A DNA stretch of 55,461 bases from an uncultured Actinomycetes bacterium (lineage in GTDB: Bacteria; Actinomycetota; Acidimicrobiia; Acidimicrobiales; RAAP-2). Below are positions 23,548 through 35,868 of the stretch, piece after piece. The stretch lies in assembly GCA_903874965.1 (NCBI GenBank), contig CAIQUD010000016.1, positions 1 through 55,461 of the forward strand, written 5' to 3'. The number at the start of each line of letters is the position of its first letter. Position 1 is the first letter of the stretch. The position numbers were made by a program, and so were the translations under genes. The notes below the pieces were generated by a model. It had not been told where the DNA came from, ran no database searches, and saw only the letters and a list, made by a program, of their open reading frames with translations.

Positions 23548-23704
23548 TGCCCCTACGCCGACAGCCCAATGGAGACCGGACCAACGAGCGGCAGTTCATC
23601 ATCGTGTCTACTCAGCCATCTGCCCCAGTTGCCCGAAGGTGAACTGACAAACTGACAGGGAAGGACACGGGGACGATCAACGGGTGAAAGTTGGAAACAC
23701 TTCC

Positions 23705-24643
23705 ATGAAGCGCTTTGCCGTAACGGCCGCTGCTTTGCTCACCTTCCTTTCCCAGGGAGTTACGGCAGGCGCGACCGAGAAGCTTCCCTCAGCGATCCCT
23801 CCAGCAGCTCTTGCCAGACTGATCGCCAGTTCCACAAAGATCAGCACCCTTCCAACCAAACTGACGACGCCGCTTTCCAAGGTTGAGGTCGATCGCGTCG
23901 ATCGCTATTACCTGAGTTTGAAAATTGGCTGCTACGCGATTGGAAACAGCTGCACCTTTGGAAGCTCGAAACTGAAGAAGACGCTGGTGCTTCTCGGTGA
24001 TTCACACGCAGCGATGTGGGCTCCAGCGATCATCCCTTCGGCAACGGCCGCTGGCTACAAGGTGATTGTGCAGTGGTTTCCAAATTGCCCGGTGGCTGAT
24101 GTTGTTCCTTGGGTCACCTTGAAAGGTCAGTTGGGAACCGACTGTTCAGCGTGGAGGACAAGGACTCTTTCGGCAATAGCCAACCTCAATCCCTCAATGG
24201 TGATCTTGAGCGAGGCGACAACGTTTGCCCAAAGCGACGCATCGACTCCATTCAGCCCGAGTGCTTGGCAGAGTGCCCTTCAACGCACTATTGCGGTAGT
24301 GAACAAGCCAGGCTCGAAGGTCATCATGATGGGTGATGTTCCCTATTTCGCCGTCTCGCCGGCACAGTGCCTTGCGGCACATCCAACTGACGTGCAGCAA
24401 TGTTCTACTGAGGTCGTGAATTCGATTCCCCAGGATCGACAGATGACGAGTGCGGAAAGTGGAGCCGCTGCGGCAACCCACATCGCGTTCTTCAATCCTG
24501 ATCCGCTGCTTTGCGCATCCACGTGTTCGCCAATTGTTGGTTCCACAGTCACCTTCAAGGACACCAACCACGTCGCTTCCAGCTACGCCGCAAGCATTCG
24601 CGACGCACTGTGGAAGGGCCTGATGGCAGCCAAGATCAAGTAG
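23705..24643 (+). CDS. Secreted SGNH-fold protein (possible O-acyltransferase/esterase domain)
   Basis: This 312-residue protein has a signal peptide (MKRFAVTAAALLTFLSQGVTAG, residues 1-22, cleavage near Ala). The SGNH block I is LLGDSHAAMWAP, the GDSH serine. The C-terminal DTNHVAS supplies the Asp and His. Multiple cysteines suggest disulfides. It looks like the C-terminal SGNH domain of OafA-type acyltransferases made as a free secreted protein. The ATG at 23705 fits the signal peptide better than the in-frame GTG at 23684; neither has a good ribosome site. The acyl donor partner is not adjacent. Confidence 0.8.
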   Translation: MKRFAVTAAALLTFLSQGVTAGATEKLPSAIPPAALARLIASSTKISTLPTKLTTPLSKVEVDRVDRYYLSLKIGCYAIGNSCTFGSSKLKKTLVLLGDSHAAMWAPAIIPSATAAGYKVIVQWFPNCPVADVVPWVTLKGQLGTDCSAWRTRTLSAIANLNPSMVILSEATTFAQSDASTPFSPSAWQSALQRTIAVVNKPGSKVIMMGDVPYFAVSPAQCLAAHPTDVQQCSTEVVNSIPQDRQMTSAESGAAAATHIAFFNPDPLLCASTCSPIVGSTVTFKDTNHVASSYAASIRDALWKGLMAAKIK

Positions 24644-28480: not shown

Positions 28481-28507
28481 AGCAACGGCACGACACGCTT
28501 GGTTGCT
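28481..28507. terminator. Weak stem-loop between convergent MBL and fibronectin-III genes
   Basis: AGCAAC at 28481-28486 pairs with GTTGCT at 28502-28507 around 15 bases, and the second arm reaches into the stop codon of the downstream gene. No T-tract. Low confidence. Confidence 0.2.
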
Positions 28508-31500
28508 AGTGGATTGAAATCACCTTGAGCGCCAAGAGAATGGTGGCGACTGCGAGGATTGCTCCTCCGAGTCTCGTCATCCAAGTCTTTGGCCACGGGT
28601 CACCCTTGAAGCCCTCGAGGTATTTCAGAATCGTTGCCGTCGTGAGCAGTAAGAGAAGGTCCCAACCAAGGAAGTCTTGAGCTCCAAGGTGGAAGGAACG
28701 CGTCAAGACAACTGCCAAGACCTGACCTGTCAGCACCAGAACTCCGAACTTCGGCAATGTCTTCGGAGCAAATCTATAGACCCAGGTAACTCTTGGGAAC
28801 GACTTCGTGAGTCTTGGAGCTAGCGCGTACAAGACGTAGATCGGAACGAGCGCCCAGACCTGCCACACATTGCCGACAAGCGCTTCACCGACGAGCAGCA
28901 TGAAGATTGACCGGATGACAATACCGACTGCGTCAGCCCTTGCTGTCGTTGGAACTGGATCAATTCGACTCATAGCGGTTCGTCTTGGATAGAGCCAGAG
29001 CGCAACATCCTCAAGGAGAAGACGAGCAAACACCACACCAGCTGCCAGGAAGCCGAATGCTTGGTGCTCGCTCACGATTGGCAGATTGAGCCCTGTAAGG
29101 CCAGGGAGAGCTTCGATCAATTTTGATGTCAAATAGAACGCAAAGAATGGCGTTAAGACATGGTCGCCGATTCTCAGCCACCACGCGTGAAGGCTGGTCG
29201 GAACGTCACGGTGGAAAGGCCGCAAGTGCGAAATCATGACGGGAAGTGCCGCCCAGAGCGTTCCAATGAGGAGGAGGCCGAGCAACGAGCGATAGGAATC
29301 GATATGGCCTGTTGCAAGAGCAAGGCCACCGTAGACCGCTACACCGATCGCACCAGCGGCCGCGTCGAAGAGGCCAATTGCCAGCAGCACGCCGAAGAGG
29401 ACGCCTCCAGCGGGCACGGCACCAAAGTGGTTCTGCAATGCGAGCGCAGGTGCGAGGACGATCGCAAGTGCGATCAGCAGCATCGATGCTGATCCAAACA
29501 TTGCTCGCAAGTACGCCCCGTCAGCAAATGATCCTTGTGCCAACGATGAATACCGTCCTGCCGACGTTGGCACTTTGGTACCCAAGCGATCAATCAGCAA
29601 CAAGCCAGGAAGTTGCCAGGTGAGCGATCGATCGCCTATGCCTTCACCAACGAGGGATACATGGTGGTGATGCACTTCAATCTGATGAGGAGCCTCCTTC
29701 TCACGCTCTCCCTCATGCTCCTCAGTCGTTCCACTGCCGACTGAACGCTCAGAAGTAACCGACTCACCTTCTGTCGGCGTTCCACTGAGTGCACCTTCGC
29801 CTTCGGCACCGAGCCCTCCCGCAAGACCTCCTCCAACGCCAGCGGCTGCAGCGGCTGTCGCCGCAATAGCTGCGAGACCAGCAAGGATCCCTGCAATCTT
29901 CTTCGGGTGCTGTGCCGGAGCGTATTCCGGCGCTACCGCCGCACTCGACAGTTGTGCGCCAACGGTTGCCGGAGCAGATGCCCCAAGTTGGGAGTGAGCG
30001 ACGACTCGAAATAGATAGTGCTGCCCAGCATCAAGACCGGTGATGACGCACGAGGTCACATCACTGCCAACGACGGAGCAGGAACTAAAGGTCCCACCTG
30101 ACGCGTCAATTGCGGTCACGGTGTAGCCAGAAATTGTCGATCCGTTGTCTGATGGTGGAGGCGTCCAACTCACTAATGCCGTATCGCCCTGAAGACTGAC
30201 GTCGACGGTTGCCGGAGGATCGGGTGGCCCAATTGGCATGGCGGAAGATGTCCCCGCACTCGCACTCGACCATCCAGCGGCATTGTGCGATCGAGCGGAG
30301 AAGTTGTAGGTGACACCATTGATGAGCCCCACGACCACGCACGTTGTAGTCGGCGGGACAACGCTGCATGCCGAAGTGGCCACACCTTGACCATCGAATG
30401 CGGTCACCGTCGTTCGGTCGAGAGGAGCACCGTTGGATGCCCCGAGCGACCAGACGACCGTTACTGATCCGCTCCCAGCTTTCATATCCGTGATAGTTGG
30501 TGCAGAGGGGACACCGAAAGGAGTGATGGACGATGACGTGGCTGATGGAGGCGAACTCCCCGCATCGGTCGTTGCGACCACCGTGAAGGTCGTCGGCGTG
30601 CCATTGGTCAGTCCCTGAATGGTGCAAGAAAGCGCATTCACCGTCGTGCAGGTCAACCCTCCAGGCATGGCGGTCACCGTGAAGTCGTTGAATGCTAGAC
30701 CTCCATTCGCACCGGCACTCCATGAAACGATCGCCGAGCCATCCTCTGGTGTTGCTTGCACGTTCAGCGGAGCACTCGGTGTGGTGAAAGGAATGACTTG
30801 AGCAGATGGTGCCGAAGTCGCACCCGGCCCTGCCCCCGTCACAGCGGTGACGGTGAATGAATACCCAACACCATTGCTGAGACCGGTCACGGTGCAGGTT
30901 GTGCTCGACGCAACTGCGGTCGTGCATGTTGCCCCTCCGGGACTTGCCACAACCACGGAAGTTTGAATTGGCGTTCCACCGGTTGAAGTTGGCGGCAGCC
31001 ACGTCACAATGACTGCACCATTTGTTCCAGTTCCAGCAACGTTGGTGGGTGCCGACGATGGCGCCGAAGGTGTCACGAGTGGCGAGGAAACCGAACTCGA
31101 TGACGAACCAGCGCCGTTGTTGGATTGCACGGAGAAGGTGTAACTCTGTCCATTGCTGAGTCCGGTAATCGTGCAAGTTGTGATGGATGCGTCCGGCGTC
31201 GTGCATGAGGCGACCGCTGATCCGTGGGGGAAGCGAGACAAGCCCGGTGAGAGCACGGGCGTTGCACTCGCGGTGTAACCAGAAATTGGCGATCCACCAT
31301 CGCTAAGCGGGGCGGTCCAAGAGATGGTTGCACTTCCATTTCCAGGCTTGACGACCACATTCGTCGGAGGATCAGCCATGGTGAACGGTGTCACTGGCAA
31401 CGTGAACGCCGACGCGTTGGAGTCTCCTGCCAAATTGAAGGCAACGACTTGGAACTGATAGGCCGAGCCGTTCTTGAGGCCAAAAATTGAACAGCCGGTT

Positions 31501-33770
31501 GTTGTGCCATCGATGGTGGTGCAGGTTGCTCCCCCGGGACTCGCGGTGACTCGGTACCCCTGAATTGCATTGCCACCATCGGAAACAGACGCAATCCACG
31601 CAATGTCTGCCCGGCCATTACCAACGGTGACCCTCATCCCAGTTGGCGTATCGGGAACGGTGAAAGGCGCCGTTGAGGCAGATGGCGGCGCCGAAGTCGC
31701 AACATTGGCGAAGTTGATTGCGGTCACGACCACGCTGTAGTGCACGCCATTCGTCAACCCCAGAATCGTGCAACCGGTCGACGACGCATCCTGCGCTGCA
31801 CACGATGCTCCTCCAGGAGAGGCAACCACGGTGTAGCCAATGAGCGGCAGTCCCCCGGTTTCGAGCGGAGCTACCCACGACACAGCGATCGTCGTATTTC
31901 CTGGGGTAACTGCAACTGACGTCGGAGCACCTGGAGTTGTAAACGGCGTGGCACCTGCGGACTCGACTGATGAAACTGAGGTCCCGGCGAGATTGGTCGC
32001 GACAACTGAGATCGTGTAGGTCTCACCATTCGTAAGACCGGAAATCGTGCATCCAGTCGTCGATCCATCCGTGGTCGTGCAACTCCCGGCGCTGACCTTC
32101 TGCGACGTCCATGCTGTAGCGGTGTAGCTCGACACTGCATTGCCACCGTCGTCACCTGGTACCGTCCACGAGACCACCACCTGACCGTCAGCTGCCTGAA
32201 CCACGACATTGGTTGGTGCACCAGGAAGCGTGTAGGGCGTGGTCGACGCTGACGACGGCGAGACGGATGGACTTCCATGTCCTGTCGTTGACGAGACGAC
32301 GAATGTGTATGCCTGGCCATTGGTCAGACCTTGGACGGTGCACGTCGTGGTTGCACCACCGGACAGGCACGTTTGCCCACCTGGACTCGCCGTCACCGTG
32401 TACCCGGTGATCGGGAACCCACCCGAGCTGAGTGGTGCTGACCACGTAACGGTGACGGTTCGATTACCTGGCGCTACCGACAGACCAGTTGGCGCTCCAG
32501 GTGACGTGAAGGGAATCGACGGATCTGACGGGACTGACGCCAATGAACTACCCGCCACATTCGTTGCAACCACGCTGAAGGTGTAGGTCGTTCCATTCAC
32601 GAGACCCGCAACGAGACAAGAGGTGGTGAGACCGTCCGGCGTCGTGCAACTTCCTGCAGCAGCCCCACCAGAGGCAAAGGCCGTCACGGTAAAGGAATCA
32701 ATCGATGCTCCTCCGTCATCTAATGGCGGAGTCCATGAGACGGAGACTTCGGTGTTTCCCGGCGTCGTAACGAGTTGCGTCGGAGGAGAAGGCGGGATGG
32801 TGAGGACGAGCGGACTCGAGGGATCAGAGGGCGTCGAGGTGCCAGCCAGATTGGTTGCCGTGACCGTAAAGGTATAGGTCACGCCATTGGTCAATCCGTA
32901 GATTGTGCAGCCTGTTGCTGAGCCATTCCGCGACGCACAGGTCGCTCCGCCGGGACTTGCCGTTGCGTGGTAGGCCGTGATCGAACTTCCACCGTTAAAC
33001 GTTGGAGCCGACCAAGAGAGCGTTGCCGATCCCATCCCAGGGAATCCGGTCACGTCACTTGGTGCATTCGGGACTGTGAAGGGTTTGACCGGGAGCGAAG
33101 GGGATGATGGATCAGATGATCCCGCTTCATTGGTCGCTACCACCGTGAAGGTGTAGGAGAACCCATTCGTCAGTCCAAGAACCGTGCAAGAAGTGGTGGC
33201 TCCATCGGGAGTCGTACAGGTCTTTGCCTCTGGTGCCGAGGTGACGGTGTAACTCGAAATCGGTCGACCGTTGCTAGAAACTGGAGGTGTCCAAGAAACG
33301 TCAACCCCGCCGTTCTGTCCAACGACTGAGGTGATGGATGGTGCTGTCGGAAAGCTGTATGGCGTCTCCAACGCCGAGGGGGCTGACGGAACCGAGTCGC
33401 CAATGTTGTTGGTCGCGACAACAACGAAGGTGTAGGCCACTCCGTTGGTCAGATCGGCAACGAGACAAGAATTTGTCACTCCATCGGGCGTTACACATGA
33501 CTTACCTTCAGGCGTTGAGGTGATGGTGAATCTTGTAATTGGCGATCCGCCATCTGACAGTGGCAACGACCAACTAACCGAAGCGGCTGAGTCGTATGCA
33601 GCCACCTCAACATTGATCGGTTCGCTCGGAACGGTCTGCACTTGAGGTGATGCTCCGGCGGGCAATGATGCACTCGCGCCAAACATTATCGCCGACATCG
33701 CCGCGAGCAACACGGACACGATCCAAAGAGATCCCGTCAACTGACGACGTCTGTTCCGGAATCGCCTCAT
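28506..33770 (-). CDS. Giant secreted/membrane protein: 13 fibronectin-III domains plus polytopic membrane domain
   Basis: This is a 1754-residue protein. Residues ~1-42 are a basic start and hydrophobic signal/anchor. From ~48 to ~1275 I count 13 fibronectin-III domains, each with the W of xVSWxxP, a GLTNG-like turn and TF.V.A.N. Nearly every domain has two cysteines about 8-14 residues apart flanking TTPDGxTT, consistent with one disulfide per domain outside the cell. A helix at ~1285-1310 follows, then a charged ~100-residue linker with a four-His run. From ~1420 to 1754 there are roughly nine or ten hydrophobic helices. I do not recognise the membrane domain. Likely a surface adhesin or sensor-like protein (inference). 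The ATG at 33770 has only a weak ribosome site. Confidence 0.88.
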   Translation of the reverse strand: MRRFRNRRRQLTGSLWIVSVLLAAMSAIMFGASASLPAGASPQVQTVPSEPINVEVAAYDSAASVSWSLPLSDGGSPITRFTITSTPEGKSCVTPDGVTNSCLVADLTNGVAYTFVVVATNNIGDSVPSAPSALETPYSFPTAPSITSVVGQNGGVDVSWTPPVSSNGRPISSYTVTSAPEAKTCTTPDGATTSCTVLGLTNGFSYTFTVVATNEAGSSDPSSPSLPVKPFTVPNAPSDVTGFPGMGSATLSWSAPTFNGGSSITAYHATASPGGATCASRNGSATGCTIYGLTNGVTYTFTVTATNLAGTSTPSDPSSPLVLTIPPSPPTQLVTTPGNTEVSVSWTPPLDDGGASIDSFTVTAFASGGAAAGSCTTPDGLTTSCLVAGLVNGTTYTFSVVATNVAGSSLASVPSDPSIPFTSPGAPTGLSVAPGNRTVTVTWSAPLSSGGFPITGYTVTASPGGQTCLSGGATTTCTVQGLTNGQAYTFVVSSTTGHGSPSVSPSSASTTPYTLPGAPTNVVVQAADGQVVVSWTVPGDDGGNAVSSYTATAWTSQKVSAGSCTTTDGSTTGCTISGLTNGETYTISVVATNLAGTSVSSVESAGATPFTTPGAPTSVAVTPGNTTIAVSWVAPLETGGLPLIGYTVVASPGGASCAAQDASSTGCTILGLTNGVHYSVVVTAINFANVATSAPPSASTAPFTVPDTPTGMRVTVGNGRADIAWIASVSDGGNAIQGYRVTASPGGATCTTIDGTTTGCSIFGLKNGSAYQFQVVAFNLAGDSNASAFTLPVTPFTMADPPTNVVVKPGNGSATISWTAPLSDGGSPISGYTASATPVLSPGLSRFPHGSAVASCTTPDASITTCTITGLSNGQSYTFSVQSNNGAGSSSSSVSSPLVTPSAPSSAPTNVAGTGTNGAVIVTWLPPTSTGGTPIQTSVVVASPGGATCTTAVASSTTCTVTGLSNGVGYSFTVTAVTGAGPGATSAPSAQVIPFTTPSAPLNVQATPEDGSAIVSWSAGANGGLAFNDFTVTAMPGGLTCTTVNALSCTIQGLTNGTPTTFTVVATTDAGSSPPSATSSSITPFGVPSAPTITDMKAGSGSVTVVWSLGASNGAPLDRTTVTAFDGQGVATSACSVVPPTTTCVVVGLINGVTYNFSARSHNAAGWSSASAGTSSAMPIGPPDPPATVDVSLQGDTALVSWTPPPSDNGSTISGYTVTAIDASGGTFSSCSVVGSDVTSCVITGLDAGQHYLFRVVAHSQLGASAPATVGAQLSSAAVAPEYAPAQHPKKIAGILAGLAAIAATAAAAAGVGGGLAGGLGAEGEGALSGTPTEGESVTSERSVGSGTTEEHEGEREKEAPHQIEVHHHHVSLVGEGIGDRSLTWQLPGLLLIDRLGTKVPTSAGRYSSLAQGSFADGAYLRAMFGSASMLLIALAIVLAPALALQNHFGAVPAGGVLFGVLLAIGLFDAAAGAIGVAVYGGLALATGHIDSYRSLLGLLLIGTLWAALPVMISHLRPFHRDVPTSLHAWWLRIGDHVLTPFFAFYLTSKLIEALPGLTGLNLPIVSEHQAFGFLAAGVVFARLLLEDVALWLYPRRTAMSRIDPVPTTARADAVGIVIRSIFMLLVGEALVGNVWQVWALVPIYVLYALAPRLTKSFPRVTWVYRFAPKTLPKFGVLVLTGQVLAVVLTRSFHLGAQDFLGWDLLLLLTTATILKYLEGFKGDPWPKTWMTRLGGAILAVATILLALKVISIH

Positions 33771-33930: not shown

Positions 33931-35868
33931 CTATCCAGGTATGCCGCTAGAAACCAGGCAAGGCGAAACTGCCGAGCCTTTGGCGGGAAAAGAACGGGCA
34001 AGTGCCGCCGCAATTCGCTTCGCTCGCTGCTGATAGCCAGCCGAGGTGAAATGGATGCCATCAGAGATATACCAGGGAGCCTGCACCTCGCTTCGCCAGT
34101 CATAGATGCGCATATTGGGGTACCTGGAGCACCCGGAAACGAGCGCTGCGTTCCACTTCTGCATCTGCACATCGGCATATGGCGAAGAATGCAACAAGGT
34201 CTTCACGGTGAGCCATAAGACGGGCTCTCCGTGAATCAGTTTCATCATTGCGTCGATCCGTGGTGCTGCGGGACTGTTTCGGAACGAAATGTTCGCCGAA
34301 TCATTCGTACCTAAGGCAAAGATCCAACAACCACGTACCCCAGATGCCCATCGAGCCGAAATCCTCTGCTGGGCGTTTGGCTGACCATTCCACGTTTCGG
34401 TCGTTGACTGCGCGCCCGCAATTTCATTGTGAAACGACTGCACTCCAACCGCAAAGAGTCGAGCTTGGATACGGTCGGCTGGATTAGGGAGATAGCTCGT
34501 TGAAATGAGCCCATCAGAGGTTGAGTCCCCATCGAACGTCAGGACCTTGCACGACGTTTTGAGGGCGTTCGTTTGGACCTGCGGCACGAGTGTCGTCGAG
34601 GTTACGAGTGTTGTCGTCGAGGCAACGGGAGGCGATGGCTTTGGGGGCTGCTTCACCGCCATGACCTGTGCAGCACCAACACCACTCACGAGGAGGAGAC
34701 TCAACAGTCCAGCAGTCGCCCCGATTCGCAGTGCCGGCTTCGTTGACGATCTGAGCAGGGAAACCGCAGCATTCCCTGCTCCGCGAAAACCGAGCGTTCT
34801 GATGGGGTTCTCCACGAACCGCCACGATAGCGAAGCAACGAGAAGGATGAGTGCCACAAGCACGCCGTCTCGAACAACTGGCACCGAGCGAAGAAACGTC
34901 GTCGGAAACGCCACAATTACCGGCAGGTGCCACAGATAGACGCCATAGGAACGTTCCCCAAGCCACCGGAGCGGAGCAATTCCAAGTAGGAGCCCTATTG
35001 ATGACCCTGGATGCACCACCACCGCCAGAAGGACAGCGGTCGCTACTGACAAGAGGAGCAATCCTCCGTGATAGAGCGAGAGTGAATATTGATCCGTCGA
35101 GACCACCAACCAGCCAATTACCGCCAATGCCGCTACGCCAGCAGTATCAAGGAGAACGCGAGCTCCTACCGGGATTGACTTTGCTCTGGCATTAGGAACC
35201 CAGAGCATTGCAAGAACAGCCCCAACGAGCAGCCCCCCAGCTCTTGTGTCGGTACCTTCGTAGGCACGGGTGTTGTCAAGACCGACATGGGACAAGAGCG
35301 CTAAAGCAATGAATGACAGTGCCGCAAGCACGCTGGTCGCCAATGCCACCCGAGCGATTTTCCCCTTGGCGAGACTCAACATGGCAAGGAGCAGAAGTGG
35401 CCACAAGAGGTAGAACTGCTCTTCGACCGCTAAAGACCACAGGTGGTCCAGAGGTCCTGGGGGTGAAAACAAGGAGAAGTAGGAGATTCCATTGATGATG
35501 GTGGTCCAATTGCTGACGTAGAACATCGCAGCAAGCGAATCACCCGCACGACTCGTGAAGTTGCCCGGTGAAAAGAGTGCCGTTGCTGCCAAAACGACCA
35601 GCAGAACCAGAATTAGCGCTGGAAGAAGTCGACGAGCACGCCGAAGCCAAAACGTTCCAAGTCCGAGATTGCCGTCCTGTCGCCACGAACGCAGAAGAAT
35701 CGAGGTAATCAGAAATCCTGAAAGCGTGAAGAAGATACCGACGCCAAGAAGGCCGCCTGAAAGCTTGGCGATGCCGAGGTGGTAGCCAACGACGACAGAA
35801 ACGGCAAGGGCTCTGACGCCATCAAGTCCTGGCAGGTAGGTCTCGCGTGCATCAACTGGGCGAGGCAT
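33931..35868 (-). CDS. Acyltransferase-3 / SGNH O-acetyltransferase (OafA-like)
   Basis: This 645-residue protein has an N-terminal acyltransferase-3 membrane domain of about ten helices, starting LPGLDGVRALAV with the key YHLG histidine, then FFTLSGFLIT and RRARRLLPAL. An extra helix near residue 385 leads to a Ser/Thr/Pro linker, and a C-terminal extracytoplasmic SGNH domain follows with FDGDSTSDG (serine) and DGIHFTSAG (Asp/His). Known relatives O-acetylate cell-surface polysaccharide or peptidoglycan. The ATG at 35868 has GGAG five bases upstream. It lies just upstream of the fibronectin-III gene on the same strand, with 160 bases between. Confidence 0.92.
   Translation of the reverse strand: MPRPVDARETYLPGLDGVRALAVSVVVGYHLGIAKLSGGLLGVGIFFTLSGFLITSILLRSWRQDGNLGLGTFWLRRARRLLPALILVLLVVLAATALFSPGNFTSRAGDSLAAMFYVSNWTTIINGISYFSLFSPPGPLDHLWSLAVEEQFYLLWPLLLLAMLSLAKGKIARVALATSVLAALSFIALALLSHVGLDNTRAYEGTDTRAGGLLVGAVLAMLWVPNARAKSIPVGARVLLDTAGVAALAVIGWLVVSTDQYSLSLYHGGLLLLSVATAVLLAVVVHPGSSIGLLLGIAPLRWLGERSYGVYLWHLPVIVAFPTTFLRSVPVVRDGVLVALILLVASLSWRFVENPIRTLGFRGAGNAAVSLLRSSTKPALRIGATAGLLSLLLVSGVGAAQVMAVKQPPKPSPPVASTTTLVTSTTLVPQVQTNALKTSCKVLTFDGDSTSDGLISTSYLPNPADRIQARLFAVGVQSFHNEIAGAQSTTETWNGQPNAQQRISARWASGVRGCWIFALGTNDSANISFRNSPAAPRIDAMMKLIHGEPVLWLTVKTLLHSSPYADVQMQKWNAALVSGCSRYPNMRIYDWRSEVQAPWYISDGIHFTSAGYQQRAKRIAAALARSFPAKGSAVSPCLVSSGIPG

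Follow-up and report, generated by a model that had tools for sequence, protein, structure and literature searches.

A protein joining thirteen fibronectin-III domains to a putative new family of polytopic membrane modules in an uncultured actinobacterium

Polycystin-1 and the adhesion GPCRs are eukaryotic adhesion receptors in which repeat stalks stand on multi-span bases. In exosortase and rhombosortase target–enzyme pairs, an exported protein that ends in a transmembrane (TM) helix and a charged tail is found beside a polytopic membrane protein. Protein O-mannosyltransferases (PMTs; GT39) have 11 TM helices, with the N-terminus inside and the C-terminus outside. The protein studied here resembles fibronectin-III (FN3) stalk proteins (PF00041) in its thirteen clear FN3 domains, but its array differs from theirs in having a Cys pair 8-10 residues apart in each domain, and in resting on a polytopic base rather than on a single anchor or a wall-sorting signal.

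The gene belongs to a lake-type actinobacterium and lies in a window of 55,461 nucleotides, the whole stretch of DNA that was analysed. In order, its product comprises a signal peptide, 13 FN3 domains, a first TM helix (TM1), a charged linker in the cytosol and another 11 TM helices. The parts are given below, those of the C-terminal module being placed by homologue alignment, topology and conservation over 56 rows.

28506..33770, minus strand: whole gene, 1754 residues plus stop, supported by the ortholog L110 and dN/dS
33648..33770, minus strand: predicted signal peptide, residues 1-41, read from the sequence (basic n-region, hydrophobic core, small-residue c-region)
29961..33635, minus strand: 13 FN3 domains, residues 46-1270 (Pfam PF00041), one Cys pair per domain
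29904..29924, minus strand: juxtamembrane motif YAPAQHP, residues 1283-1289; its form aromatic-x-P-x-x-H/D recurs ahead of TM1 in fused homologues
29823..29897, minus strand: TM1, an Ala/Gly-rich helix, residues 1292-1316, borne by a separate partner in split systems
29523..29822, minus strand: charged cytosolic linker, residues 1317-1416, holding the conserved GD...W and D1394
29661..29672, minus strand: HHHH, residues 1367-1370, not conserved across the module family
28509..29675, minus strand: module of the family, residues 1366-1754, with 11 predicted TM helices, cytosolic N-terminus and outside C-terminus

The first-pass annotation had described a 1754-residue reading frame at 28506-33770, and these coordinates and this length are exact, on the minus strand. 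The thirteen tandem FN3 domains it reported were recovered by Pfam fn3 (PF00041) as 13 stretches at E 7e-144 and 468.8 bits against a cut-off of 25, which places the array among FN3 domains. The closely spaced Cys pair noted for each domain was also found: the protein has 26 Cys, all of them in the FN3 domains, arranged as 13 pairs whose partners lie 8-10 residues apart, and disulfides would form within these pairs. The nearest solved relatives of the domains include FN3 domains of titin, Dscam and contactin. Because the 13 domains are only 30-58% identical to one another, the array is old or fast-evolving, with no recent expansion. As annotated, a TM helix and then a charged linker with four His follow the array. 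The multi-span nature of the remainder also held, while its count of about nine or ten helices did not; hydropathy, charge and helix breaks in an AF2 model give 11. The suggestion that the four-His run binds metal is rejected because the run is not conserved, being shared only by the closest ortholog and absent from the other homologues.

A contig search returned one locus only, that of the ortholog L110 (1755 aa; genus-mate MAG G041, contig CAIXCS010000215.1, 'uncultured actinobacterium Kiruna2_bin-4386'), in which the module is 91% identical and 26/26 Cys are kept. Between the two proteins dN/dS is about 0.08 for the FN3 array and 0.046 for the module, ratios that are rough because synonymous sites are near saturation. 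Purifying selection acts on both parts, and the gene is coding, real and under constraint. As the genome is a draft in 145 contigs, assembly or gene calling might have fused two genes, but an independent MAG has the same fusion at the same length (L033/L110) and 20-odd further proteins, besides the window protein and its ortholog, are also fused to the module. The ortholog refutes such an artefact, to which we give practically no weight.

Genus-mates G029 and G049 have conserved flanks, with acyltransferase-SGNH on one side and alkyl-sulfatase-like and CorA-like genes on the other, and carry an MFS transporter gene in the slot of the FN3 gene (L123:10265-11734 and L124:10240-11754, placed by these flanks). 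This makes the FN3 gene an accessory one, which suits a variable surface protein. In the window, an acyltransferase-3 with a C-terminal SGNH/GDSL domain (33931-35868) lies 160 bases upstream on the same strand, and a separate SGNH protein is encoded at 23684-24643. We claim no functional link to the upstream acyltransferase-SGNH gene or the downstream alkyl-sulfatase-like gene, since genus-mates without the FN3 gene have both; the neighbours give no functional hint.

The first-pass annotation had called the C-terminal module unrecognised and proposed an HMM search of this part. No Pfam match in the last 474 residues of the window protein exceeds the cut-off, 38 module members have no convincing match to any family in Pfam or NCBIfam, the module consensus has no match in Pfam, and a profile search of PDB sequences returned at best a soluble enzyme (E 1.1). 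The search therefore yielded no known family, and the module stays unrecognised in Pfam, NCBIfam and PDB sequences. Within the same taxonomic family, a single sequence as query finds relatives in 29 of 150 genomes and a profile in 31 of 150; the order has them in 19 of 347 genomes and the phylum in 9 of 396. Each of the five genomes of the window's own genus has 2-5 module matches, some of them fragments. No relative was found in viral contigs, and among the open-access papers searched none links Acidimicrobiia or Acidimicrobiales to fibronectin domains or NHL modules. We collected 56 near-full-length copies. The window protein carries the features that define the family, namely DGxYLRAxxG, R1517, D1536, R/K1583, G1633, P1669 and 11 TM helices. 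Judged by its sequence, the 11-TM module is a new and recurring protein family, absent from Pfam and NCBIfam, and is to be named as new. The first-pass annotation did not recognise the architecture of FN3 domains on a multi-span part; the design is not unique to the window protein, given that 11 of 22 scanned fused homologues carry FN3. A third module copy in the window's own genome, at G000:C137:1-705, is truncated where its contig ends.

Across 41 homologues, hydropathy and the distribution of positive charge place 11 helices beyond TM1, and the helix breaks of a low-confidence AF2 model agree. Per protein, Lys and Arg number 21.6 in 140 cytosolic loop residues versus 1.1 in 40 outer residues. 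This topology, together with the signal peptide, puts the FN3 array outside the cell, as the first-pass annotation had supposed. Neither of the results that would have refuted that annotation, a known C-terminal family or a cytosolic FN3 array, was found. An outside location of both the FN3 array and the module C-terminus is strongly implied, and NHL propellers attached to that terminus would therefore be outside too. Between 91 and 100% of the 56 rows keep each of six charged residues (D1394, D1417, D1469, R1517, D1536, R1583), all on the cytosolic side; R1517, D1536 and R/K1583 are invariant and D1417, D1394 and D1469 near-invariant. No Cys, His or Ser is conserved in at least 80% of these rows except S1408 (86%). 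A profile-profile search with hhalign detected no internal repeat in the module of the kind that marks inverted-repeat transporters such as MFS and LeuT-like proteins (all probabilities <5%), although such repeats are often visible only in structures. The AF2 model, built from the two near-identical rows of the window protein and its ortholog, has 12 helices and a pLDDT of 38, which makes it unusable as a fold; in this low-confidence model the TM1 region is helix 2-31.

The module occurs in three layouts. In fused proteins, which reach 3084 aa, exported domains are followed by an Ala/Gly-rich helix and a charged linker, and the module forms the C-terminal end; their heads include FN3, MBG, RCC1, FG-GAP, TSP3-like, beta-helix and other domains. 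Stand-alone module proteins have about 390-540 aa, and in NHL-tailed proteins the module comes first and an NHL propeller is C-terminal. Nearly all heads, the NHL propeller included, are repeat-type or binding domains, and none is a clear enzyme. In a tree, one clade takes in every NHL-tailed protein, the stand-alone proteins gather mostly in a few clades, and the window protein forms a deep branch with its ortholog alone; L057, L102, L106 and L113, which lie outside those clades, are labelled stand-alone owing to contig ends, N runs or the classification cut-off.

The Cys-paired FN3 type is also found in adjacent giant proteins without the module. Five fused module genes are each followed directly downstream, on the same strand, by a gene for a giant FN3 protein without the module, the called starts overlapping (L054:11093-19001, L055:14986-17085, L050:2144-8266, L049:1-4448 and L048:5372-6280), with sizes of 2040 aa and, as a lower bound, >2636 aa. 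It may belong to the same surface system as a second component.

Directly upstream of the module gene, on the same strand, lies a small gene for an exported protein in all 17 evaluable members of the clade to which the NHL-tailed and most stand-alone copies belong. This clade has 18 rows, of which L070 begins at a contig end and was left out, and the count does not extend to eight stand-alone copies of a separate clade, whose N-terminus is basic and rich in Ala. Thirteen of the partners are called genes, that of L062 is hidden beneath an antisense ORF, and for L034 (from the window's own genome), L036 and L066 only the acidic tail is visible, running off the contig end. In several pairs the two genes overlap by 1-4 bases. 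A typical partner opens with a signal sequence and continues through a small 'GYPGP' domain and a stalk rich in Thr to a TM helix rich in Ala and Gly, and its tail is acidic or Gly-rich; its parts follow one another as in the N-terminal half of the fused proteins. The partner end before the stand-alone module gene of the own genome (L034:13590-13803) carries tandem DDGGEEDEPLNPL repeats, and the contigs of L034 and its genus-mate L036 both end within DDGGEEDEPLNPL repeats. TM1 has an Ala+Gly+Ser fraction of 0.62-0.68 in fused and split proteins alike. The motif aromatic-x-P-x-x-H/D precedes TM1 in 14 of 28 fused proteins, a count inflated by close relatives, versus 0.21 expected from their own ectodomains; in split partners the strict motif is weakly above background (3/11 versus 1.0 expected). 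The upstream gene and the module are, as read from their layout, a split form of the window protein's design. As split and fused forms both exist, we take stalk and base to work together. In another arrangement, stand-alone modules at L039:830-3937 and L044:7368-11057 lie in tandem or divergent pairs; they have basic, Ala-rich N-terminal repeats (TAARAGSAARAG) and no recognised upstream partner.

What might such a base do? It could be a transporter or channel whose exposed stalk captures a solute, with the ectodomain or partner concentrating what the 11-TM module then moves. Eleven helices, short outer loops and conserved charges in or beside the membrane would suit this, but neither Pfam nor NCBIfam matched a transporter family (nor did the consensus in Pfam), the internal repeat of many transporters was not detected, and the ectodomains are too diverse for one substrate; we regard it as rather unlikely. 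Alternatively, the module could be a membrane factor dedicated to processing or exporting its own stalk, cutting the Ala/Gly-rich TM helix or helping to insert it, in cis in the fused form. The strict pairing of module and exported single-span protein recalls target/processing pairs, two near-invariant Asp (D1417 and D1536) lie at the inner face, and Ala/Gly-rich TM helices are typical among intramembrane protease substrates. The conserved Cys/His or catalytic-type Ser that exosortases, sortases and rhomboids need is nevertheless missing, GxGD occurs in 16 and YD in 6 of 56 rows, and fusion to the substrate and an extra C-terminal propeller better suit a stable complex, so this proposal appears improbable. 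We consider equally poor the prospects of an ordinary modular surface protein whose polytopic part only anchors and stabilises it and is otherwise inactive. The accessory slot and variable heads would be expected of it, yet specific charged residues are strongly conserved across families of the order, stand-alone copies occur, and genomes of the genus have 2-5 matches each.

The explanation that we put first, at about even chances, is an exported, disulfide-stapled FN3 stalk on a dedicated 12-helix base: an adhesin or receptor whose head can be exchanged while its polytopic base is conserved. One conserved module beneath unrelated heads supports a dedicated base, and the stalk gene is the only partner found conserved with the module. 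The sequence strongly implies that the FN3 array is exported and that TM1, a small-residue helix, crosses inwards; TM1 would pack on the 11-TM module, giving one membrane unit that comes as a single chain in the window protein and presumably as two chains in split systems. Binding to a surface, a polymer or a cell would fall to the variable ectodomain; the base would hold the stalk and may relay binding to the cytosolic face. A 12-helix base exceeds the needs of passive anchoring and therefore probably has an activity of its own. The earlier choice among adhesin, transporter and sensor is thereby only narrowed, in favour of an adhesin or receptor. A bolder proposal, which we consider speculative and unlikely, is that the module represents a new kind of membrane machine. 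It would act on a dedicated single-span surface protein, or through it, whether by cleaving it within the membrane and releasing it, by exporting it or by outside-in signalling, and the window protein would be a self-contained version with stalk and machine on a single chain.

Attachment and cell contact are hardly understood in these uncultured, partly freshwater actinobacteria, whose variable surface proteins appear to be carried by an 11-helix family undescribed in Pfam and NCBIfam. Split and fused forms offer a direct test of stalk and base as one complex. If the base signals or processes, it would be a new bacterial way of coupling a surface stalk to the cell.

Among described systems, exosortase and rhombosortase pairs are alike in placing an exported protein, which ends in a TM helix and charged tail, beside a polytopic one. 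The module differs in having no conserved Cys/His or catalytic-type Ser and in often forming one chain with its partner, and the stalk tails are acidic or Gly-rich, not basic. Across the 56 rows, the catalytic Cys/Arg/His or Ser/His of exosortases, sortases and rhomboids was not found, and the YD plus GxGD pattern of presenilin and signal peptide peptidase type Asp proteases was likewise not a feature of the family (6/56 and 16/56). With the PMTs the module shares 11 TM helices and N-in/C-out topology, with no Pfam match; because its outer loops have 3-14 residues and no conserved acidic residues, it lacks room for a PMT outer active site. Polycystin-1 and the adhesion GPCRs are alike in layout only, a long beta-repeat stalk on a multi-span base; no sequence relation was found and we claim no kinship, the likeness being one of design.
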